Origin: Bryobacterales bacterium
Lineage (GTDB): Bacteria > Acidobacteriota > Terriglobia > Bryobacterales > Bryobacteraceae
DNA: 41,654 nucleotides
Reading direction: 5' to 3'
Assembly: GCA_003166875.1 (NCBI GenBank)
Contig: PMUN01000296.1
Span: 1 to 41,654, forward strand
In this document: positions 5,715 through 41,243 of the stretch, piece by piece
Layout of the letters: each line of letters starts with the position of its first letter
How positions within the stretch are numbered: the first letter of the stretch is position 1
Notes under the pieces: generated by a model
What the model saw: only the letters and a program-made list of their open reading frames with translations
The model's database searches: none
What the model was told of the DNA's origin: nothing
Program-made: the position numbers and the translations under genes

Positions 5715-6467
5715 ATGACAACGTTGCGGAAGCTGAGATTTCCCATCCTGATTGGGAGCGGCATCCTTGCGGCAGCCGGCCTGATTTACTTTGCGAACGG
5801 TCGCATAAATTCCGATAAGACCCAAGGCGCTATCGGCAAGCGGGATGTTTACCGCGACGGCCAGGTAGATGCGGCCAGCGTGGGGGCAACTCCCGGCGCC
5901 GCTCCGGTAGCCATGCAAGCGATCCTGGACAGCAAAGAGTTCAAATCGTTGGCGAAGAACCAGGCTTTCCAGAGCCTAATGGCCAGCCATGAATTCCAGG
6001 CTGTGGCCAAGGATCAGGCCTTCGTGTCGCTGCTCTCCAGCTCCGATTTTCGGCAGATGGCCCAGAGTTCCGCGTTCACGCAATTGCTGCAGAGTGAGTC
6101 GTTCCGCAGGGCGCTGGCTCAGTCCAACGTGAGGGAGCTGAATGCCCAATCGCATCAGGAAACCAATAAACAGGAGCTGGGAAGGTTCGACATGAGCTTC
6201 GCGGCCGTCAGGCAGGATGCCAACTTCCAGGTCCTGGAGCGCAACCAGGCGTTCGTCAATCTGACGCAAAATATGATGTTCCGGTCTATCGTACGGAATG
6301 AGGCTTTCGTGAACCTGGTTGCAGGATCCACATTCCAAGCCATGATGAGGGACAACGCTTTTCGAGGCCTGATTTCGCAGTCCCAGTTCCAGAGTGCGCT
6401 GCTGAGCGGTAGTTCCGCCAACCTGATATTTCGAGCCGGCGCTGGTGGCGGCGGCGGCAACCGTTGA
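5715..6467 (+). CDS. membrane-anchored protein with tandem 9-residue FxxL repeats
   Basis: Start chosen at ATG 5715 (AAAAGGAGAAAAAGCCAGATG). TM segment IGSGILAAAGLIYFAN; 15 repeat units in two blocks. Confidence 0.75.
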   Translation: MTTLRKLRFPILIGSGILAAAGLIYFANGRINSDKTQGAIGKRDVYRDGQVDAASVGATPGAAPVAMQAILDSKEFKSLAKNQAFQSLMASHEFQAVAKDQAFVSLLSSSDFRQMAQSSAFTQLLQSESFRRALAQSNVRELNAQSHQETNKQELGRFDMSFAAVRQDANFQVLERNQAFVNLTQNMMFRSIVRNEAFVNLVAGSTFQAMMRDNAFRGLISQSQFQSALLSGSSANLIFRAGAGGGGGNR

Positions 6468-9421
6468 GCAGGGTTACAAAACGCTTTAGAATTCCCGGAG
6501 TCCCGCGTTGCATCGCGGGACTCCTTCTTTTATTGGCGCCTTGCTTTGCAGCCCACCCACGTATCTACATCCAATCCTCGGAACATATCGAAGTTCTCTA
6601 TTACAGTCCTTCGCATGAATATCTGGTCACCCATCTCATTCGCTCCTACGAAAACGCGCTGAACTTCGAACGCAACCTCTTCCACTTCACGCCTTCCCGC
6701 AAAGTCAGCGTTCTGATCGAGGATTTTGGCGACTATGGCCACGGCGCTGCCGGAACCGTACCCTCGAACTTCATCAGCGTGGGTATCGCTCCTTTCAGCT
6801 ACACCTACGAAACTTTACCCGCGAACGAGCGCATGACCTGGATCATGAATCATGAGTCCATTCATATTGTGATGGGCGACAACGCCAACAACATCGACCG
6901 CCGTTTTCGATCGTTATTCTTCGGCAAGGTGGCGCCTACCGACGAAGAGCCCGTCTCCATGCTGTACAGCTCCTTGACCAGCCCCCGCCATTATTCCACA
7001 CGCTGGTTTCACGAAGGCATCGCAGCTTTTATGGAAACCTGGATGTCGGGAGGTCTGGGGCGCGCCATGGGCGGATACGACGAAATGGTGTTCCGCGCCA
7101 TGGTTCGCGACGATGCCCGCATCTACGATGTCGTCGGCCTGGAATCCGAAGGGACGTCCGCCGATTTTCAAACCGGCGCGAATTCATATCTCTACGGAAC
7201 GCGCTTCATGACCTGGCTGTGCTACACGTATGGTCCCGGCAAATTGCTGGAGTGGGTCACACGCGGCGAAAACACCAAACGCTATTTTGGATCGCGCTTC
7301 TCGCAGGTCTACGGCATGGGCATGGCAGAGGCCTGGAAAAAGTGGATCGCCGGCGAACGAACCTGGCAGGAAGCCAATCTCAAAGAGATTCGCAAGTATC
7401 CGGTCACCCAGCCGCAGCGGCTATCGTCGAAATCGCTCGGGTCTGTTTCGCGCGCTTATTACGATTCCAGGCTGAACGTGATCTATGCCGGCATTCGATA
7501 CCCCGCGCACATGGCGAGTATAGCCGCGGTTCACCTGGATACAGGAAATATCGAGGAGCTGAAAGACATCAAGGGACCGGCGCTTTACTACGTGACATCT
7601 TTAGCCTGGGACGCCCGCGGCAGAAAACTGTATTACACCACCGACAACAACGACTGGCGCGACTTGATCGTCTATGACGTTGATACGCACCACTCCCAGC
7701 GTCTGCTGAAGGATTTCCGCACAGGAGATTTAGCTTTCGATTCTGAGGACAGCTCACTGTGGGGTGTCCGTCACGAGAACGGCTTATCCACGCTGGTAGA
7801 GATCCCCTCACCTTATAGCGAATTCAAAACCCGTCATGAATTCGACTACGGCATCGACATCTTCGACATCGATGTTTCCCCCGACGGTCAATACCTCACC
7901 GGCGCCATCACCGATCTGAGCGGGCGCCAGAAATTGGTCCGCTTCAAAATCGATCAACTGCGCAAAGGTGAAGCGACCTTCGAAGTCCTCTATGACTTCG
8001 AATACAACACGCCGGGGAATTTCGTATTCTCCGCGGACGGACATTATATGTACGGCTCGTCCTACTACACCGGCGCGTCCAACCTTTTGCGCTACGATTT
8101 CTCGACCAAGAAGATGGAACCGATCAGCAACGCCGAAACCGGCCTGTTCCGGCCTCTGCCCCTTCCCGACGGATCTTTGATTGCTTTCGAATACACCAGC
8201 AAGGGATTCGTCCCAGGGCGTGTTCCCACCCAGCCGCTGGAAGATGTCAGCGCGGTAGAGTATTTTGGGATGGCCACGCTCAAAAAATATCCGGAACTGA
8301 AATCCTGGAAACTGCCGCCGCCATCCACCATCAGCTCCGAGAATCTCATTACCCGCGCGGGCGAATACAAGCCGTTGCAGAACGTGCAGTTGATTTCGGC
8401 CTATCCCATCGTCGAAGGCTTCGAGAATACGGTAGCGGCAGGAATGCGCGCTGAATTCTCCGATCGGCTGCGCCTGGCGGGCATCAATGTGGATGCCAGC
8501 TATTCTCTCGATCCGAATCTGGCCGCGGGCGCCCGCGCACACGCATCCTTTGACGCCCACTTGTGGGACTGGAAGCTCACCGGCTATTACAACTACGCCG
8601 ATTTCTACGACCTTTTCGGTCCAACTCAGTTGAGCCGCAAAGGCGAATCGTTAAAACTGGCGCATTCGAAGTTTTTGCTCTACGACACGCCGCGCACCCT
8701 GTCTTTCGATTGGAACGTAGCCGGCTACGTGGGGCTGGATCGTTTGCCCGAGTATCAAAACGTAACCACCTTCGTTCACAATTTGTTTGAAGCCAATGCT
8801 CTACTGAAATACGCGAATGTCAGCCGCGCCCAAGGCGCCGTGGATGACGAACAGGGAACGAAGTGGGGCATTTATTCGCGCATCTACTATGCCGATAACG
8901 CATTTCCTCGCTTGTGGGCCAACTACGATCACGGATTCCTGCTGCCGAAGAACAGCGCGTTGTGGCTGCGCGCCTCGGCCGGCAAGTCCTTCGGCGATTT
9001 CAACAGCCCATTTTCCAGCTTCTACTTCGGAGCCTTCGGCAATAACTACATCGACCACCAAGAAGTGGATCGCTATCGCGATTACTACAGCTTCCCCGGT
9101 GTCGGAATCGATCAGATCGCGGCGCGCAGCTTCGGCAAGTTTCTAGCGGAGTACAACCTGCCGCCCAAGAGATTTCGAGACTTTGGCGCCACCTGGTGCT
9201 ACGTGAATTGGGCGCGACTCAGTCTGTTCTCCTCGGGGCTCTTCACAAACTTCACCAGCGTGCCTAGCCGTGATTACTACGGGAATGTGGGAACGCAGCT
9301 GGATATCCGCGTGGTCCTTTTTAGCTATTTGAACACCACGCTTTCGGGCGGCTATGCGGCGGCAACCGATAAAACCGGTCACGTTTCGACCGAATATATG
9401 GTCTCTCTGCGGGTTCTCTGA
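6464..9421 (+). CDS. secreted/outer-membrane protein with gluzincin-like HExxH motif, TolB/WD-like propeller repeats and C-terminal beta-barrel
   Basis: TTG start overlapping upstream stop; signal peptide; NHESIHIVM (HESIH); repeats such as LAWDARGRKLYYTTD and DIDVSPDGQYL; aromatic beta-rich C-terminus ending YMVSLRVL. Confidence 0.75.
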   Translation: MSRVTKRFRIPGVPRCIAGLLLLLAPCFAAHPRIYIQSSEHIEVLYYSPSHEYLVTHLIRSYENALNFERNLFHFTPSRKVSVLIEDFGDYGHGAAGTVPSNFISVGIAPFSYTYETLPANERMTWIMNHESIHIVMGDNANNIDRRFRSLFFGKVAPTDEEPVSMLYSSLTSPRHYSTRWFHEGIAAFMETWMSGGLGRAMGGYDEMVFRAMVRDDARIYDVVGLESEGTSADFQTGANSYLYGTRFMTWLCYTYGPGKLLEWVTRGENTKRYFGSRFSQVYGMGMAEAWKKWIAGERTWQEANLKEIRKYPVTQPQRLSSKSLGSVSRAYYDSRLNVIYAGIRYPAHMASIAAVHLDTGNIEELKDIKGPALYYVTSLAWDARGRKLYYTTDNNDWRDLIVYDVDTHHSQRLLKDFRTGDLAFDSEDSSLWGVRHENGLSTLVEIPSPYSEFKTRHEFDYGIDIFDIDVSPDGQYLTGAITDLSGRQKLVRFKIDQLRKGEATFEVLYDFEYNTPGNFVFSADGHYMYGSSYYTGASNLLRYDFSTKKMEPISNAETGLFRPLPLPDGSLIAFEYTSKGFVPGRVPTQPLEDVSAVEYFGMATLKKYPELKSWKLPPPSTISSENLITRAGEYKPLQNVQLISAYPIVEGFENTVAAGMRAEFSDRLRLAGINVDASYSLDPNLAAGARAHASFDAHLWDWKLTGYYNYADFYDLFGPTQLSRKGESLKLAHSKFLLYDTPRTLSFDWNVAGYVGLDRLPEYQNVTTFVHNLFEANALLKYANVSRAQGAVDDEQGTKWGIYSRIYYADNAFPRLWANYDHGFLLPKNSALWLRASAGKSFGDFNSPFSSFYFGAFGNNYIDHQEVDRYRDYYSFPGVGIDQIAARSFGKFLAEYNLPPKRFRDFGATWCYVNWARLSLFSSGLFTNFTSVPSRDYYGNVGTQLDIRVVLFSYLNTTLSGGYAAATDKTGHVSTEYMVSLRVL

Positions 9422-13658: not shown

Positions 13659-14362
13659 CGCCAAACGAACTTCTCTTATGGCTTTCGGCGCGGAAGGCGG
13701 GCTCCTGGTCACAATTCCGGGGAGCGGTGGAAACACTCGATTTGGCGAATAGCTCTGCGGAGGGCGAGGAAGACGCCGGGCTGCCAATCCATCAACGGGT
13801 CCGCTTGAATCTGGAACGGCTCGGTCATATTGAATTTGGTGCAGCCGACAGCGAAGAGGGCTGGCGGGTAGTGCCTCCTACCTTGGCGCTCTTGCAATAC
13901 AATGGCCGGGTTACTGGCATTTTGTGCGGAGCACGAACCCTCCCTCTTTTAGAGAGAATTGAACGGGCGGCGAACGAATTGCCGTTCGAACGCGTGCCGC
14001 ACCCGGATTGCCCGGACATTCTGCGTATGCACGCGCCAAGCGCCCAAATCCTCATCGACATGGCTCAACGCGAGGGTATCTTCTGCCAAGCCGATGCCCC
14101 TACGGCTTTGCTCTCCCACCTCCCGTCCATTGATTCCGCTAAAAGCTGGCATCGCAGTCCGATGCCCGCAGCGGGCAAGGACTGGGATGTAAAGCAATTC
14201 GCTGTCGAAAGGAAGTCGATGAAGTGGGGGACGATTACGCTTCAGGAAGCGAATGCGCCCGGAGCGCAGGGGCTATTCCGTTTCACGCGCTTTCAAGTAT
14301 CACAGCATTTTCTGCGCGAAGGCCGGGAAACAATCAAACTCCCAGGTCCGGTTGCGATATAA
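13655..14362 (+). CDS. unknown protein (235 aa), MTPNELLLWLSARKAGSWSQFRGAVETL..., possibly 3'-truncated
   Basis: GTGA overlap with upstream gene; globular sequence with GWRVVPPTLAL and GILCGARTLPLLERI; ORF ends exactly where recombinase homology begins. Confidence 0.7.
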   Translation: MTPNELLLWLSARKAGSWSQFRGAVETLDLANSSAEGEEDAGLPIHQRVRLNLERLGHIEFGAADSEEGWRVVPPTLALLQYNGRVTGILCGARTLPLLERIERAANELPFERVPHPDCPDILRMHAPSAQILIDMAQREGIFCQADAPTALLSHLPSIDSAKSWHRSPMPAAGKDWDVKQFAVERKSMKWGTITLQEANAPGAQGLFRFTRFQVSQHFLREGRETIKLPGPVAI

Positions 14363-15482
14363 AGTCGATCGCTTCTCGCGCTCGCTTCTCGATTTCATGA
14401 AGATGATGGAGATTCTCGATAAGCACAGTGTGACCTTCGTTTCGGTAACACAGCCGTTCAACACAACGACGTCGCCAGGGCGGCTGCTGGTGAACATGCT
14501 GTTCTCGTTCGCCCAATTTGAGCGCGAGATGATTTCCGAAAGAACGCACGACAAAATGGGCGCGGCCCGGCGTAAGGGGAAGTGGATCGGTGGGAACCTG
14601 GTCTTGGGTTATGATTTGGCACCAAAGGGCGGCGCACTCGTCGTCAACCGAAAAGAAGCGGATCGAGTCTGTGAGATCTTCCGGTTGTATCTGGAATTTG
14701 GATCACTCATCCCGCTAGTAGCGGAATTGGAACGGCGCGCCTGGAAGATGAAGGCCTGGACGACCCTGGAAGGCCGCGAGACCGGCGGCTCTCGCTTCAA
14801 CAAGACCACGCTTTACAACTTGCTCACCAATGTCATTTACACAGGCCGCGTGAAGTATGAGGGCAAGCTTTATGATGCCGAACACGAGCGGATCGTTGAC
14901 GACGACACCTGGAACCGTGTCCAGGAACAACTAAACCGAAATGGCCGGCGGGGTGGACGGAACGTCCGGAATAAATGCGGGGCGTTATTGAAGGGGCTCG
15001 TGCACTGCGCGACCTGCAACTGTGGAATGGTTCACACCTACACACAGAACGCTAAAGCTCTATATCGTTACTACGTGTGCGTCAACGCCCAGCAGCGAGG
15101 CTGGAACAAATGCGAGACGCGATCCGTTTCAGCGCCTCTACTCGAAGACGCTGTCGTGGACCAGATCCGGGGCTTTGCTCAGCGTCCGGGGATGTTGTCG
15201 GAAGTGCTGCGCCAGTTGGAGGAGAACCGCCAACAGAATGGTCCGACATGGCCCATAGTCGAGCCGGGTGATGTTCGCGATGCTCTTCTGAAGTTCGATC
15301 CGCTGTGGAATCAGCTCAACGGTTGGGAACAGGAGCGGCTTATCCGCGCTCTGGTGAAGGAGGTCAGTTACGACGGCCCCAACCAGACTGTGACCGTTAG
15401 TTTCTTGTCCGAAGGGATTCGGGAATTGTGCCGGACAGAACCGATGGAGAAATCGAATAATGAAGAACTCAAATGCGTTTGA
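14355..15482 (+). pseudogene. large serine recombinase lacking catalytic N-terminus
   Basis: Homology starts at YKVDRFSRSLLDFMKMMEIL...FAQFEREMISERT; C-terminal zinc ribbon HCATCNC...YYVC; the expected N-terminal YxRVSTxxQ segment is absent. Confidence 0.8.
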
Positions 15483-24626: not shown

Positions 24627-25928
24627 ATGCATTCTGCCACTTACTCGCAAGACGATTCACCACGCGTGATTCCGGCGGCTGCGACCAATGCCTCCGAGGT
24701 ACAACGTTGGCAAATCGAGCGGCTCATTCCGTACTCTCGCAATCCGCGCAAGAACGATGCCGCCGTGGATCGCATGGCTGCGTCAATCCGCGAGTTCGGT
24801 TTTAAGATTCCCGTGCTTGCGCGCAGCAGCGGCGAGGTGGTCGATGGCCACTTACGATTGAAAGCAGCAAGGAAGCTGGGCATAACCGAAGTCCCCGTGA
24901 TCCTGTGCGACGAATGGTCGGAAGCACAGGTCAAGGCATTCCGCTTGATGGTGAATCGCTCCGTCGCCTGGGCCGAGTGGGACGCGGAGCTGCTTGGCCT
25001 GGAACTCCTGGATTTGAAGAGTCTCGACTTCGATCTTGACCTCACGGGGTTCGATTCATCCGAGCTGGAGCGCTACCTCGCCGACATCGATGCCGCGCCG
25101 GGGCTCACGGATGAGGACGACGCGCCAGAGCCGCCGGAAACGCCCGTCAGTCGGGCGGGTGACCTGTGGTTGCTCGGAAAGCATCGCGTGTTATGTGGAG
25201 ACGCGACCAAGACCGTTGACGTCGAGCGGTTGGTGGCCAGTGACAAGGCTGACTTAGTCTTCACTGACCCTCCGTACAACGTTGACTATTCCGGATACAC
25301 GAAGGACAAGTTGACGATTCAGGGCGATCGAATGACCGACGAGGAATTCCGGCGATTTCTGGCTGCTGCTTTCTCCCATTACCGAAGGGCAATCAAGCCG
25401 GGCGCTTCGCTCTACATTTGCCACGCCTCCTCGGTCCAGCGCGATTTTCAGAACGCTATTGAGGCGGCAGGACTTGACGTGCGTTGTCAGATTATCTGGG
25501 CGAAGAATACTTTTGCCTGGAGATTCGGCAGGTACAAGTTCCAGCACGAGCCGCTCTTCTATTGCCACGTCGGCGGCGAGAAAGATCCTTGGTACGGCGA
25601 CAAATCTCAATCAACGTTGTGGACGGAAAAGAAGCCAGCAGCGAACCGGCTCCATCCGACCATGAAGCCCGTTGAGTTGGTCGAACGCGCCCTACGCAAC
25701 AGCAGCAAGGCTGGGGATATCGTGGCGGACTTGTTCGGAGGATCGGGTAGTTCACTTATCGCATGTGAACGGCGCGAGAGGTCAGCACGCCTGATGGAGC
25801 TGGACCCGAAATACGCCGACGTCATCGTCCAGCGTTGGCAGCAGTACACGGGCAAGGCGGCGACGTTAGAAGGCGACGGCCGAACCTTCGACGCGATCGC
25901 TGCGGAGCGAAAAAGCGATGCCGTCTGA
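24627..25928 (+). CDS. ParB N-terminal domain fused to DNA methyltransferase (DPPY)
   Basis: IPYSRNPRKNDAAVDRMAASIREFGFKIPVLARSSGEVVDGHLRLKAARKLG; FTDPPYNVDYSG; HPTMKPVELVERAL; VADLFGGSGSSLIACE. Confidence 0.9.
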   Translation: MHSATYSQDDSPRVIPAAATNASEVQRWQIERLIPYSRNPRKNDAAVDRMAASIREFGFKIPVLARSSGEVVDGHLRLKAARKLGITEVPVILCDEWSEAQVKAFRLMVNRSVAWAEWDAELLGLELLDLKSLDFDLDLTGFDSSELERYLADIDAAPGLTDEDDAPEPPETPVSRAGDLWLLGKHRVLCGDATKTVDVERLVASDKADLVFTDPPYNVDYSGYTKDKLTIQGDRMTDEEFRRFLAAAFSHYRRAIKPGASLYICHASSVQRDFQNAIEAAGLDVRCQIIWAKNTFAWRFGRYKFQHEPLFYCHVGGEKDPWYGDKSQSTLWTEKKPAANRLHPTMKPVELVERALRNSSKAGDIVADLFGGSGSSLIACERRERSARLMELDPKYADVIVQRWQQYTGKAATLEGDGRTFDAIAAERKSDAV

Positions 25929-28188: not shown

Positions 28189-28875
28189 ATGAGAGTCATT
28201 GGGTACGCACGCGTTTCAACGGATAAACAAGCCGACCGAGGTGTTTCGCTCGACGCTCAGACCGAGAAGATCCGCGCCATGGTCGTTGTACACGCTGCTG
28301 AACTCACGGACATCATCGTGGAAGCCGGTGAGTCGGCGAAGAGTCTGAATCGTCCAGGCATGCAACGGCTGCTCGCGCTGGTCGATGCTGGCGACGTGCA
28401 GGCCGTCATCGTGGCGAAGCTCGATCGGCTCACGCGGAGCGTAAAAGATCTTTGCGAACTGCTCGAAAAATTTGAGAGACGCGGAGTGGCGCTGATCTCG
28501 GTGGCCGAATCCCTCGACACCGGCTCCGCAGCGGGCAGACTTGTGCTTAATATAATGACCGCGGTGAGCCAATGGGAGCGCGAGGCGATCGGCGAACGCA
28601 CGCGGGACGCGCTGAGCCACAAGCGCACTAACGGTGAGCGAGTTGGGAACATCCAGTTCGGCTACTGCCTGTGCGCCGACGGGAAACACATCGAGCCAGA
28701 TCCCCGCGAACAGGCCGTGCTCACGGAAATCCACCAACTGCGCCGGAGCGGCCTGACGCTGCGAGGTATTGCTGCGGCATTGAACCACCGCGCCCTCCGA
28801 ACGCGCCGTGGCTCCGCATGGAGGCTGGAGCACGTGGCCAGGATCATCAAGCAGGGCGCAACCAAAGAAATCTAA
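28189..28875 (+). CDS. serine recombinase / resolvase (intact catalytic domain)
   Basis: MRVIGYARVSTDKQADRGVSLDAQ; VAKLDRLTRSVKDL; SQWEREAIGERTRDAL; recombinase helices. Confidence 0.9.
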   Translation: MRVIGYARVSTDKQADRGVSLDAQTEKIRAMVVVHAAELTDIIVEAGESAKSLNRPGMQRLLALVDAGDVQAVIVAKLDRLTRSVKDLCELLEKFERRGVALISVAESLDTGSAAGRLVLNIMTAVSQWEREAIGERTRDALSHKRTNGERVGNIQFGYCLCADGKHIEPDPREQAVLTEIHQLRRSGLTLRGIAAALNHRALRTRRGSAWRLEHVARIIKQGATKEI

Positions 28876-35512: not shown

Positions 35513-36328
35513 TTACTTCTTCTTGGCTGTCTTCTTTTTGGCGGCGGCCTTTTTCTTGGGGGCTGACGCGCCCTTGGGATAGATAGTGGCGGAGAACGCG
35601 TAGTCGGAGGCATCAATGTCCAGGCCGCCGATGATCGGCTCGCCATCTATCGTGATTTCGCCGGGGATTTGGTAGCACATGATCGACTTCGGGTCGGGGG
35701 TTGTGCCATTGATGGTCGAGTCTTCGATAGGGGTCAGAACTTGATCGGTGGTTTCCTGCGCGCTCCACCCATCGTTCTTGAGGAAATAGGCGATGGCTTT
35801 CTTTTTATCGATCTTCTTCACGAGCGCCTTCCGCATATGCTCGTGCACAAACCCGAGCGTATGGCCGGTTTCGTGCCGAACGACGCGGTAAAACTCCCCA
35901 TCCTCAGTCTGCATGGTGAAAGCCTCAAGGTTCATCGTGGCTTCACCCTTCTTGATGGTCTTGATCTGCGTGCCTACATAGGACCAATAACCGCCGTCCT
36001 GGCCGCCCGCGCGCGCGATGCGCACGTCGGCGTTATCGCGGTCCTTGGTGGGAGTGAAGGTGACGTTGGCGTTCTTGTTCCATGCGTTCATGTGGCTCAG
36101 AATCCTGTTCTTGAGCGCGGATTCTGGACTATCCAGAAATCCGACCGTCAGCTTCACGCCGCTCGTACCCCAGTAAGCGGTGGTCAACAGCGCAATGTGC
36201 AAGGGCGAGGGCGCGCCCATCCCCAAGGCTGCCATGCGCTCCACTGGCGGGCGATTCATGGGGTTGATGGTGATCGCGTGATGCGCCGCCTCGATTAATT
36301 GGCCTGCGTCAATCGCTTGGGCAGGCAT
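35513..36328 (-). CDS. metzincin (astacin/matrixin-like) zinc protease with Lys-rich C-terminal tail
   Basis: RHETGHTLGFVHEHMR (HExxHxxGFxHE), Met-turn SIMCYQ, tail KKKAAAKKKTAKKK. Confidence 0.8.
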   Translation of the reverse strand: MPAQAIDAGQLIEAAHHAITINPMNRPPVERMAALGMGAPSPLHIALLTTAYWGTSGVKLTVGFLDSPESALKNRILSHMNAWNKNANVTFTPTKDRDNADVRIARAGGQDGGYWSYVGTQIKTIKKGEATMNLEAFTMQTEDGEFYRVVRHETGHTLGFVHEHMRKALVKKIDKKKAIAYFLKNDGWSAQETTDQVLTPIEDSTINGTTPDPKSIMCYQIPGEITIDGEPIIGGLDIDASDYAFSATIYPKGASAPKKKAAAKKKTAKKK

Positions 36329-36387
36329 ACGAGCTGCTTCGCTACTTTGTCCTTCATTTGTTCTCCTTGTTCTTTCTCTAAAAATTG

Positions 36388-37641
36388 CTAAACGACTTCG
36401 ACCTCGATCGGTACAACGGTGGCTTTCTTGCCGAGCGTACTTTCCAACTTGCTCCCGCTCTTTAGCGCCTTCACGAGGTTCGTGGACGGCACCTTGCCAT
36501 CTTCGGACTTGTCATAGACGCCGGCCGCGGTAGACATCAATGTCTTCAGCTTCTTGCCTTTGCGCTTATCGAAGAAATCCCATAGCTTGTGGGGAGTGGC
36601 GTTGCGGCTGCCGTGGTGGCCCACTTTGTACACGTCCACGTCGTGAAGAAGTTCCTTGATTCCCTTTTGCGAAAGCGCCCATTGCCAGTTCTCAAGCTGC
36701 GCGTCTCCGGGGAAGAGAAGCTTCTTGCCGGCCACCTCAAACAACAGAATCAGACTTGTATTGTTGAGGTAGTTGTCCAGGATCCGGACGATTCCCAAAA
36801 CGTTTTTCTTGAGAGCCGCATCGGCGTGCTGTACGAACCAGCGCATCTCCGTTGGTATCGCGCTACGGTACGCGGCGGCTCCCGGGAAAAGTTTGAATTT
36901 TCCCTTCTCCACCCCGCGCTGTTGCAAGCCCCAGTACTTGGAGGCGATCCAGTATTCATCACTATTCTTGGCGTATTTCTTGAGGTTCGCCTGCTTGAGC
37001 GTCGGCGGCCCCAAGACGGTAACTTTGACACCGGGGAGAAGTTTGCTGTTTTCAAGTCCGGACGGATCTCCGTAGGCGAGAAACTTGGGAGGCTTGCTTC
37101 CCATTTTCTGGAGATTCTGTACGGCGTCGGGATTCTTGGTGTTATTGGAAGCGAGCTTCTCTAAACGTGTCGTCTGGTTGCCCGGCCCTCGCCACAACGA
37201 CGCCCGGTCTACGACGGACTGCGCGTACGCCTGCATCGCATTGAGCGAAGCGAAATAAACTTGCGTAGCCTGCGCCGGTTGATTTTTTTTGAACAACGCC
37301 GCGGAGGTTGCGTTGGCGCCCGCCTTCGGATCTTCGGTCCAGGGCTGAATCACGATCTCCGGCTCGCACGAAGCGATGATGGCGCCGCCGCTCTTGTCGG
37401 AAAATCCGCTGATGTGGTCCTTGTGCCGGTGGGTGGCGACGACCGCGTAGAGCTTCTCGCCGCACGCTTCTTTGATCTTCGCGGCGATGCCCTTCATGTC
37501 CGCGCTACCGCTCGCGGTGCCGAAGTCGATCAGAATACTTTGGTCCTTCAGCGGCGGCTCGTAATGGAACGTCAGCAGAAAGCAATCGCCAAAGCCGACG
37601 ACGAACATGCGGATGGTTACTTTGATGGGTTTAGTCGCCAA
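36388..37641 (-). CDS. MBL-fold (ComEC/Rec2-like) hydrolase
   Basis: TTG start; VVATHRHKDHISGF (HxHxDH-type), LILLFEVAGKKLLFPGDAQ, DVYKVGHHGSRNATP. Confidence 0.85.
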   Translation of the reverse strand: MATKPIKVTIRMFVVGFGDCFLLTFHYEPPLKDQSILIDFGTASGSADMKGIAAKIKEACGEKLYAVVATHRHKDHISGFSDKSGGAIIASCEPEIVIQPWTEDPKAGANATSAALFKKNQPAQATQVYFASLNAMQAYAQSVVDRASLWRGPGNQTTRLEKLASNNTKNPDAVQNLQKMGSKPPKFLAYGDPSGLENSKLLPGVKVTVLGPPTLKQANLKKYAKNSDEYWIASKYWGLQQRGVEKGKFKLFPGAAAYRSAIPTEMRWFVQHADAALKKNVLGIVRILDNYLNNTSLILLFEVAGKKLLFPGDAQLENWQWALSQKGIKELLHDVDVYKVGHHGSRNATPHKLWDFFDKRKGKKLKTLMSTAAGVYDKSEDGKVPSTNLVKALKSGSKLESTLGKKATVVPIEVEVV

Positions 37642-39388
37642 TGTGGTCGTCCTCCAAATCCGCCTCGAGCGTAGGCTGCCCGCGCAGGATGCTCTCGAGG
37701 TGCATGGCGCTAAACGACATCTTTGTATTGAAGGCGCCGGTCTTCCAGAGATATTCGAGGCGCTGGTTTTGGCGGGCGTGTGTTCCGATCCGGTTCCGCA
37801 CGTGATACTTCAAGCGGCCGGCTTCATCAAAGATCAGCGCTCCGCCGCCGTAGATGGTGAGGTCCTGATCGCCGGGCATTCCACGCGGTTTTTTGAGCCC
37901 GAACTGGTCCAGATCGCTGGCTTGCAAGCGAACCTGCTGCGAGTAGGTCGCCACGGTTTCGTGCAGCACGAAGCCGTCAGAGCTCACCCGATAACATGGG
38001 TCTACGCTACCCACGTTCGTGTAGGCCCGAGTCTCTACCTTGAGCGCATCCCGGTTCTCCCACAAGAAGCGGAAGATCTCGTCTTTATCGTGCTGCATGG
38101 ACTCAAAGTGAGTGCGGTTGTAGATCAAACCTTTGTTCTCTGTTTCGTTTTCGTCGGGCGATCCCCACAACCCGGGCTCCGGCTGATTCTTGCTTGTGGC
38201 CGCGGGCTGGAATCCGAACGATTTGAATCCGTCAATGAGCGACTTGCGATATCCGTAGCGCGAGTCGTCGCGATGCATTTCGAAGTCGGCGGTCAGCATC
38301 GCGCTCAAGAAATCCCCAAACACGAGGTCCGTGGGCGGACAGTAGTCCAGCGCGCGGATGCACATGTTCAGCAAGTGCTCCGCGGTTTCGATCGCAGCAT
38401 CGACAACGCCCACCCGGCTGACTTTGCCTCGTCCGAGATCTCCGTACAGTACGATTCGGCCTAGCCAAACCTTCAAAAACGTTCCCAGCACCGCGGCCAC
38501 CAGCAGTTCTCCGCGGCGGTGGGACTCCTGATACTCATCCGTATCTTTCAACGCCGGGCTAGGGGCGATGTTGATGGAGCGGCGCAAGGACATTCCACGC
38601 ACGCCGTACATAGCTTCGCCAACCTGGTCCGCGAGCCCCAGGAGCAAGCTGTTCTTCAACGCATCTTCCGTCACGTCCTTCGCGTCGACTAGTTCCTTGC
38701 TCAACGATTTGCCGCGATCCAACCCGACACTCACGATTTCGCGAAGGGAAAGAACCGACAAAAGCGCCACGATATCGCCGAACGCTTCGTGAAATGCGGC
38801 TTGATCCGCAGAAGAAGGACGCAGGTAGCCAGGGCGCAGGCCGTCCACGAGAGCGTGCGTGGTCTCATGCGCGACCACGTCGTGCGAGAGACAAGTGAAC
38901 ACCATTCTCTGGGTATCGGGATAGTAACCAAAGAAGATGGCTCGATCGCCTTGCGAATAGAACGCGTTGAGATCGAGAAACGCGTGAGGAGCAATGGTGA
39001 TCTGATGGCCTGCGAAGCTCCACGGCACGCGGCGGCCCAGCGCGCGCTCAAACCGCGCGAGCACGCTCATCACGATCGCGTAGGTGCTGCGGGCGTGGAA
39101 GGCGCGGTCCGTTTCCGGGTGCGCGACTTTCTTTTCGAGATCCTCGCCGCGGTATGGCGCCGCCTTGTAAAGGACGCGATTCGTCGCGTCGTAATCGACG
39201 ACCTGTACTCGATAGCCGCGCGGCCCGGGCATCAACTGTTCGTTGGGAATCTCGATCACAGCGGTAAGGACTTTGCCGTCGCGATCTTTGATGGTGGGGT
39301 CGAGCGCGATGATCCGGTACTTGCACGTAGGCTGGGGATTCGGAATAATCGCGACGTGTCTCGCCGATTTCGGCAACCTTGTAGCCAT
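37631..39388 (-). CDS. thermolysin-like (gluzincin, HETTH) peptidase
   Basis: Start placed at MATRLPKSARH (SD GGGAGA); VVAHETTHALVDGL with downstream FHEAFGDIVALLS. Confidence 0.8.
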   Translation of the reverse strand: MATRLPKSARHVAIIPNPQPTCKYRIIALDPTIKDRDGKVLTAVIEIPNEQLMPGPRGYRVQVVDYDATNRVLYKAAPYRGEDLEKKVAHPETDRAFHARSTYAIVMSVLARFERALGRRVPWSFAGHQITIAPHAFLDLNAFYSQGDRAIFFGYYPDTQRMVFTCLSHDVVAHETTHALVDGLRPGYLRPSSADQAAFHEAFGDIVALLSVLSLREIVSVGLDRGKSLSKELVDAKDVTEDALKNSLLLGLADQVGEAMYGVRGMSLRRSINIAPSPALKDTDEYQESHRRGELLVAAVLGTFLKVWLGRIVLYGDLGRGKVSRVGVVDAAIETAEHLLNMCIRALDYCPPTDLVFGDFLSAMLTADFEMHRDDSRYGYRKSLIDGFKSFGFQPAATSKNQPEPGLWGSPDENETENKGLIYNRTHFESMQHDKDEIFRFLWENRDALKVETRAYTNVGSVDPCYRVSSDGFVLHETVATYSQQVRLQASDLDQFGLKKPRGMPGDQDLTIYGGGALIFDEAGRLKYHVRNRIGTHARQNQRLEYLWKTGAFNTKMSFSAMHLESILRGQPTLEADLEDDHIGD

Positions 39389-39555
39389 AGTGTTGGTCTC
39401 CCGTGGGCTGTATTTCTCCGGAGACCTCCTCCCTTTTCCCTTTTCCAGGACCTTCTCTAGTGTTAGCGCAATTATAGCGATGAAAGGGACATATTTGTAC
39501 AGGTGTCTTTTAGAAATGAGGTAAACTTCTGGTAGTTCCCTTTCGAACAACTTCC

Positions 39556-40080
39556 ATGGCCGATGAAAACACAACAGCGGAAGATCTGATCGCCGAAATC
39601 AGGGAAGCAGCGAGCGATTTTACGGCAGGGGAGGCGGAGATCTTCGCCCAGGAAGCCAGGCAGGAGGTCGCTCAATACCGGCAGGCCGCTCTGACCTTCG
39701 GGTTTGGAGAGGAAACACGCATACGCGCCGTCGGCCTCGGGCAGACGTTCGTAGTTCCTGAGCCCTATAGATCTCGGGCTGAGGTTTTTCTGGTTTTTGA
39801 GGTCTTTGTGAGATTCTTTATTGACCCGATCCTCGTTGGAGCCTCCTTGCCGGAACTGCTCGGCGAAATCGATCCGGAAGTCGAACGGCTTGAGTTCGTC
39901 GATTCACCGTTCAATTCGGGCCGCGAGACAGGAAATCCGGAACCCCGAATACTTTATCTTGGGGAAACTGGGGAGCTGAGGGCGGGCGCTTCCGGTCTTA
40001 TTGAGATCGCTACCGAATTAGGCCGAGCGCTGTTCGGCGAGGCGTTTCGGGCTGGTGAGTTTTGGGAGACGAACGAGTGA
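39556..40080 (+). CDS. unknown acidic protein (174 aa), partner of downstream nuclease
   Basis: ATG ORF divergent from the peptidase; GTGA overlap with next gene. Confidence 0.65.
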   Translation: MADENTTAEDLIAEIREAASDFTAGEAEIFAQEARQEVAQYRQAALTFGFGEETRIRAVGLGQTFVVPEPYRSRAEVFLVFEVFVRFFIDPILVGASLPELLGEIDPEVERLEFVDSPFNSGRETGNPEPRILYLGETGELRAGASGLIEIATELGRALFGEAFRAGEFWETNE

Positions 40081-40778
40081 GCTCGATTAATCCAGGGTTG
40101 CTCCGCCGTTTCTTCCGAGCGTTTTCCAGGCTGCGGGTTGTCGTACCTACGAGCAAAGGAAACCAGTACGAGTTGTTCACGTTTCTAAATGTGTGCCTGA
40201 CGGCAAAGAGAGCTAGATTGCGCGTTAGCATGACAGGCCACAAAGGAAAGTACGTGGTTCGCTCGTCGCCCGGAAATTTGGGAGGGCCATACGGCTATGC
40301 GATTCTCACTACGCAGAACTCGACGGATTACGAATTGCACAATGGCATAGAGATCGACGGGCAGTCGGGAATGAAACACGAGGCCGACCTCTTGCTGTTA
40401 GGTGCGAGGGGAACGGCGGCTGCGGGTCCTCCGCGATCCGCCCTTCTCACCCAAGACCTCATGTGGGCGGCGGAATGCAAGTTCTACAGTGCATCCAGCC
40501 GGCTGAAGGGGGAGTCACGAAAAGCTGTGGGAGTGACTCTCGACTTTTCCTTGAAGGGACACTCAAGCTGGCGCGCCGGCGTCATGTCGGGATGTCTTCA
40601 TTGCGGAATGGGTTTCGAGGCTTGCTTCGTCACCAACGTGCGTCAGGGTCTGCGGCCTGATATTGAGGACTACCTAGACGCGTACAGAATCAGTCCCCTA
40701 TTCGGAGTTCTTCCAAAACGGAAGAGTTTGAGAGGACTTCACGCACACGCACGGCAGATGTTGTCCAATCTCCCGTAG
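40077..40778 (+). CDS. PD-(D/E)XK nuclease-like protein
   Basis: GTG start at 40077; YELFTFLN ... GQSGMKHEADLLLL ... WAAECKFY pattern (E, D, ExK). Confidence 0.65.
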   Translation: MSSINPGLLRRFFRAFSRLRVVVPTSKGNQYELFTFLNVCLTAKRARLRVSMTGHKGKYVVRSSPGNLGGPYGYAILTTQNSTDYELHNGIEIDGQSGMKHEADLLLLGARGTAAAGPPRSALLTQDLMWAAECKFYSASSRLKGESRKAVGVTLDFSLKGHSSWRAGVMSGCLHCGMGFEACFVTNVRQGLRPDIEDYLDAYRISPLFGVLPKRKSLRGLHAHARQMLSNLP

Positions 40779-40808: not shown

Positions 40809-41243
40809 CTATATTGAGGCATCAGTCGCGTGCGTGTGCGTTCCTGCCAGGATGAGCTGCGAAGCATCGATTTTCGAAAAACCCGTCAATGTGTAGGCCG
40901 CCGCCTGGTGCAGCAGATACCGCGACGCGCACCAAAGGTCAACAAAGCACAACGCCGCCGTGTGGCCGACGCCATCGTCGATGTAGAGGGCCCGCGCGAA
41001 CAGCGGATGCCCCACGCCTTTGGCGGTTGTTCCCGCCAGACTGTACCCGGCCATGGCGACAAGTTCGCTCGGAGTGATGTCGACCTCCGCCACGCCGCAG
41101 CGGGCCACGCCGGTTCGCGCCGCCGCTCGGGCGGTCCCTGTCTTCACCTGAAATGTGACACGGCGGCGGCTGGACGCGCGTGCAACCATCTTTTCCAGCG
41201 CGCGAAGTTTTTGCGACAGTGTGGTTCGTGAGGGAGCGGGCAT
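40809..41243 (-). pseudogene. neutral ceramidase-like N-terminal fragment
   Basis: AEVDITPSELVAMAGYS, GVGHPLFARALYID, CFVDLWCASRYLLHQAA, LILAGTHTHA then stop after TDASI. Confidence 0.65.

Follow-up and report, generated by a model that had tools for sequence, protein, structure and literature searches.

A zinc metalloprotease paired with a ComEC-type MBL hydrolase as a probable gated-nuclease module of bacterial defence

The window, a stretch of 41,654 nucleotides from an Acidobacteriota contig of 43.7 kb, encodes a protease with a HETTH zinc motif directly upstream of an MBL hydrolase of the ComEC type. This HETTH-MBL pair is probably a metalloprotease that unlocks a gated pro-nuclease in abortive anti-phage defence; unlocking is the likely relation because the pair is conserved and often located among anti-virus genes. 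For Hachiman and AVAST, Tuck et al. (2025; PMC12799240) showed that the MBL nuclease is a proenzyme whose active site is covered by two insertions and that a partner trypsin-like protease activates it by cleavage; Canu uses a caspase. LmuA, Avs1a and RTasMBL belong to the set in which they found gating insertions. The window MBL has two insertions at the positions expected for the gated pro-nucleases of Hachiman, AVAST and Canu; a HETTH-unlocked gated nuclease is the simplest reading. The likeness to gated pro-nucleases, from which the specific mechanism follows, was missed by a sequence-only reading of the locus.

ORF reading of the window recovered all five ORFs of that earlier reading in the layout it had described. 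On the minus strand, the genes for the HETTH protease (585 aa; 37,631–39,388, with its ATG at 39,388) and the MBL hydrolase (417 aa; 36,388–37,641) overlap by 11 nt, and the gene for an astacin-like metzincin (271 aa; 35,513–36,328) starts after a 59-nt gap behind the MBL gene. A divergent intergenic region of 167 nt (39,389–39,555) separates them from two plus-strand genes, which encode an accessory protein (174 aa; 39,556–40,080) and a putative PD-(D/E)XK-like nuclease (233 aa from GTG; 40,077–40,778) and are coupled by GTGA (40,077–40,080). The truncated ceramidase noted at the right edge was confirmed as a minus-strand N-terminal fragment of a neutral ceramidase (144 aa; 40,809–41,243) that covers positions 3–98 of 509 of the Pfam profile; it forms the right boundary and lies outside the system. 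HETTH and the metzincin reach a best 12-mer hydropathy of 0.78 and 1.15, respectively, versus 1.65–2.80 for four ORFs of the same window presumed to be exported; the value of 2.04 for the MBL stems from a conserved strand of its core and not from a signal. The proposed absence of signal peptides from the three hydrolases is borne out by this comparison, and their interpretation as secreted enzymes was rejected, as none has a hydrophobic N-terminal signal.

Other parts of the contig contain further genes of interest. Two serine recombinases and a ParB-DNA methylase (window positions 14,253–15,482, 24,627–25,928 and 28,189–28,875) are signs of mobile elements, and a 985-aa ORF without any Pfam match is followed by a PrsW-type intramembrane protease (6,464–9,421). 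To the right of the window, past the ceramidase fragment, an RHH-like DNA-binding protein (contig positions 41,855–42,451) and a small HTH-like protein (42,937–43,209) were recognized by eye; these are possible mobile-element remnants.

The zinc motif of the HETTH protease (38,855–38,869, minus strand) belongs to a ligand and catalytic set of H174, E175, H178, E201 (the third ligand, in FHEAFGD), D205 and H290, all of which are invariant in 24/24 pairs, so that the HExxH, the downstream Glu ligand and the catalytic His of peptidase family M4 are present throughout. Pfam M4 matches the protein weakly (0.0048), under the Pfam gathering score, and we therefore class it as M4-like only. A PDB search with the single sequence returned no relative, and the profile of the family matches the Bacillus neutral protease 1npc over the HExxH...E region (E 0.09). 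Judged by these motifs, the protein is a putative zinc gluzincin of the M4/thermolysin-like type. It shares with thermolysin the HExxH, the Glu in FHEAFxD and the distant His, but differs from it by having an additional C-terminal region and no signal peptide or recognizable secretion propeptide.

HETTH domains also occur in other arrangements. A signal-less subtilisin (S8) domain with a HETTH domain behind it forms a two-protease fusion of about 1030–1240 aa, which is found with an MBL on plasmids (L044, L072, L076 and L077) and in L118, and without one in L030, L032 and L033; many HETTH homologues lack an MBL, including also those of L027, L028 and L031. In L027 (8,743–11,730) and L028 (4,162–6,972), HETTH adjoins, by eye, a large peptidoglycan amidase/PGRP-like protein, possibly another HETTH partnership. 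In L031 (3,593–6,525), the neighbourhood of HETTH includes two M43-like metalloproteases, neither of which has an obvious signal peptide, and one matches Pfam M43 at 2e-13. Plasmid-encoded MBL partners annotated as 'serine protease' or 'S8 peptidase' (L071, L072 and L077) were considered as a different protease class, which was rejected because they proved on inspection to be a HETTH-family protein and S8-HETTH fusions. The 'serine protease' of L071 (4,619–6,010), encoded on a plasmid of Rhizobium close to a gene for HamA (DUF1837), is a zinc protease of the HETTH family with the motif HEFGH.

The MBL contains the active-site motifs HRHKDH (residues 71–76; 37,414–37,431, minus strand), D313, K339 and HHGS (residues 342–345). 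Its catalytic residues are intact in 24/24 pairs, and HxHxDH is invariant in 24/24 MBLs. Pfam Lactamase_B matches weakly, while defence MBLs match clearly (LmuA, 1e-21; Avs1a, 4e-15; RTasMBL, 1e-10), and the top matches of the family profile are the ComEC structures 9vc6, 9ic4 and 30bt. Like the gated nucleases, the protein combines a ComEC-related MBL fold and an intact active site with two insertions between the active-site motifs that are missing in ComEC. Motif spacing against ComEC places insertion 1 at about residues 100–200 (37,042–37,344) and insertion 2 at about residues 214–288 (36,778–37,002), both on the minus strand. Measured by alignment, with the ComEC of the same genome as the reference, the distance from HxHxDH to LGPP is 135 aa in the window MBL and about 67 aa (to LSPP) in ComEC, and that from LGPP to NNxS is 81 aa versus about 12 aa (to NNDS). 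Over 24 MBLs, the HxHxDH–LGP and LGP–NNxS spacings are 112–158 and 74–132 aa, respectively. Long insertions in MBLs also arise for other reasons. The window MBL has the HxHxDH, GD and KxGHHGS motifs in common with the ComEC MBL domain and matches solved ComEC chains, but it has no channel domain and contains the two additional insertions of about 70 aa each. AlphaFold2 models from two-sequence alignments reached pLDDT values of 30 for the MBL and 37 for HETTH.

Basic terminal tails are found in 6/28 MBLs versus 7/156 neighbour and control proteins (Fisher p 0.006), which would fit a DNA substrate. Such histone-like Lys/Arg-rich tails recur on the MBL (L021, L043, L072, L076, L117 and L119), at the C-terminus of the window metzincin and on an SGNH-like hydrolase neighbour in L021 (8,940–10,043), with an HC2 match among them. 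In L082 (1,384–5,800; genome G025), consecutive genes encode a patatin-like lipase, a protein of unknown type and an Avs1a-like MBL, which may be a further MBL-lipase module lacking HETTH.

In 24 measured pairs from five phyla, the protease gene is always first, with a gap of −19 to +119 nt. Because the pair recurs in all these loci, the association is not due to chance. The distance matrices of the HETTH and MBL trees are strongly correlated (Mantel r 0.906, permutation p 1e-4, 24 pairs); as in the gated pairs, an adjacent protease coevolves with the MBL. Shared descent may be a partial cause of the tree agreement, and the obligate adjacency is beyond what shared descent alone explains. A profile of the MBL clade matched 7/247 Acidobacteriota genomes, 7/7 directly beside HETTH, and a HETTH protein search matched 18/247. 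In a 396-genome census, the MBL is adjacent in 11 of the 23 HETTH genomes; the others carry HETTH fused to subtilisin, have a divergent form or stop at a contig end. Of the plasmid regions, 10/10 retrieved through HETTH contained the MBL and 8/8 retrieved through the MBL contained HETTH, with the same gene order in 18/18 (rhizobia, Hymenobacter, Isosphaeraceae, Deinococcus and Methylorubrum). The MBL clade was never seen without HETTH in the 7/7 Acidobacteriota genomes and 18/18 plasmid regions, and the pairing is obligate from the MBL side.

The pair is distributed over at least five phyla (Acidobacteriota, Planctomycetota, Alphaproteobacteria, Bacteroidota and Deinococcota) and is often present on plasmids, some of which are conjugative. 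No relatives were detected in IMG/VR contigs using either alignment, and phage records yielded only two matches, on which grounds a phage-borne module was rejected. The plasmid pairs sit among CBASS, Hachiman, Gabija-like and multiubiquitin genes, whereas control windows of the same plasmids do not. A PADLOC scan of eight plasmids at E ≤ 1e-15 matched 94 families among 66 neighbour proteins versus 8 among 90 control proteins, figures that count families and not independent systems; the control was one similar-size window per plasmid, at least about 90 kb from the pair. The neighbour matches include HamA, HamB, GajA, a CBASS cyclase, TRIP13 and WYL. A SMODS cyclase and HNH-SAVED are found beside the pair in L029, and multiubiquitin/E2 genes in L039. 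This defence-island context of the plasmids is guilt by association. We agree with the earlier suggestion of cytoplasmic hydrolases that act together in the manner of a conflict system. Around the metzincin-bearing chromosomal copies (those of the window, L019 and L021), most genes are metabolic, and this branch may therefore serve another use.

The metzincin of the window matches Pfam Astacin (1e-8), with myroilysin as its nearest solved structure (6e-25), and contains HETGHTLGFVH (residues 152–162) and the Met-turn SIMCY. The HExxHxxGxxH motif and the Met-turn are shared with myroilysin and astacin family M12A, from which the protein differs by having no signal peptide, a Lys-rich C-terminal tail (PKKKAAAKKKTAKKK) and a coupling to the HETTH-MBL pair. 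The nearest relative of the locus, L019 (67% identity), has HETTH, MBL and metzincin in this order and no plus-strand pair; the metzincins themselves are 64% identical in L019 and 61% in L021, where the order is the same. Beyond the metzincin of these three loci, the third gene encodes a patatin in L025, L029 and L042, a Tle1-like DUF2235 protein in L036, L037 and L039 (also near the pair in L072 and L078), a PLD-like protein in L043 and an SMC-like ATPase in L040 and L041. The metzincin was rejected as an obligate member, since a 53% relative in genome G125 lies away from its HETTH. The third hydrolase is coupled to the pair yet variable. The proposed multi-hydrolase system is retained for the obligate HETTH and MBL; the metzincin is one of several alternatives, and the accessory and nuclease-like genes appear to be separate.

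No HETTH-MBL relative that was read contains the plus-strand pair, nor do 198 other Acidobacteriota genomes. The nuclease-like ORF matches no Pfam family; its sole relative found, on a Hymenobacter plasmid, is 30% identical and retains the D, E and K of the candidate PD-(D/E)XK core (D105, E133 and K135). The accessory protein matches no family either, and its Hymenobacter relative is weak (23%, E 7e-4) but stands in the same two-gene order. These relatives are near an integrase and BREX genes, and HETTH and MBL are absent there. The accessory and nuclease-like genes are probably an independent small defence module, so that the window would hold two modules back to back. A single five-gene system including both genes, as first suggested, is compatible with the divergent layout and its 167-nt shared promoter region. 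It was nevertheless rejected because the plus-strand pair is missing from all relatives, and with the only relative of that pair located beside BREX, we consider it highly improbable.

No named system in Pfam, NCBIfam or PADLOC corresponds to the module, which agrees with its earlier description as undescribed in that respect, and a literature search for an M4-MBL pair found no description. Tuck et al. may already have seen the clade, because they state that homologues are partnered by proteases of 'other diverse families'. Like HETTH-MBL, the HamMAB, Avs1a-Avs1b, Lamassu and DRT pairs (PMC12799240) consist of coevolving neighbours, a protease and a ComEC-type MBL whose active-site motifs are separated by two insertions, and they occur in defence islands. 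The MBL is typically upstream in those pairs, and HamA, Avs or LmuA carries the trypsin domain as a fusion. In contrast, the HETTH protease is an M4-like zinc enzyme, usually stand-alone and upstream of the MBL. The module was found to contain no trypsin-like domain, no fusion with HamA, Avs, LmuA or RT and no fused sensor. The MBL scores 55.5 bits against the Avs1a NCBIfam cut-off of 420 bits, and no STAND gene is present within the module, which separates it from AVAST type 1. In Canu (same paper), a gated MBL nuclease likewise follows a stand-alone protease gene, as the presumably gated MBL follows HETTH here, but the Canu protease is a caspase with an Ig domain and a CanB partner, whereas the module has a metalloprotease with a variable third hydrolase and no caspase-family protease. 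A core with interchangeable effectors, including patatin phospholipases, is shared with CBASS, but the module itself contains no cyclase.

The mechanism that we infer extends to DNase activity, gating, partner cleavage, the trigger, the role of the third gene and defence. The MBL would be a DNase that the two insertions keep inactive by covering its active site. Once activated by a trigger, probably phage infection, the HETTH metalloprotease would cut the insertions of its partner MBL; the released DNase would then degrade DNA and stop the infected cell. The third hydrolase would be a second effector, possibly a zymogen that HETTH switches on too. No sensor was identified for the pair, and no cut sites were found in the MBL insertions. 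A wider proposal is tentative: a cascade in which HETTH senses infection and unlocks not only the gated DNase but also a second, exchangeable hydrolase, which may be a protease, a phospholipase or a PLD.

A defence module with the roles distributed differently, in which the protease kills and the MBL senses, or in which the substrate of the MBL is not DNA but RNA, a nucleotide signal or a lipid head group, is equally compatible with the island context. The weak similarity of the MBL to the phosphorylcholine esterase CbpE (E 0.03) and the frequent lipases among the third genes point in this direction, but the MBL profile matches best to ComEC-type structures and defence MBLs. Moreover, HETTH exists without the MBL while the MBL clade was not seen without HETTH, as expected if a substrate depends on its activator, and we regard this redistribution of roles as rather unlikely. 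It is more doubtful still that the genes are cargo of interbacterial attack, delivered by a T6SS or a contractile injection system, with signal-less proteases and Tle1, patatin and PLD lipases entering rivals. The absence of signal peptides, the basic tails and the assignment of DUF2235 to the T6SS Tle1-like catalytic family would suit such cargo; however, the annotation of the 18 plasmid regions shows no VgrG, PAAR, Hcp or immunity gene next to the pair, and the neighbours are antiviral genes. Ordinary proteolysis or peptide metabolism with incidental neighbours, for which the largely metabolic surroundings of the window, L019 and L021 copies speak, is less plausible again: the absence of signal peptides, the obligate MBL pairing across phyla and plasmids, and the defence-island enrichment all argue against it.

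If HETTH does unlock the MBL, an unrelated protease class, a zinc metalloprotease, would be added to the principle of bacterial immunity in which a protease unlocks a nuclease, which suggests that the same gated nuclease has been paired with proteases several times independently. The second effectors are interchangeable, and the cascade idea is therefore directly testable. If it is true, the genome would be destroyed together with the membrane or proteome, and the subtilisin-HETTH fusions would represent a further upstream step.
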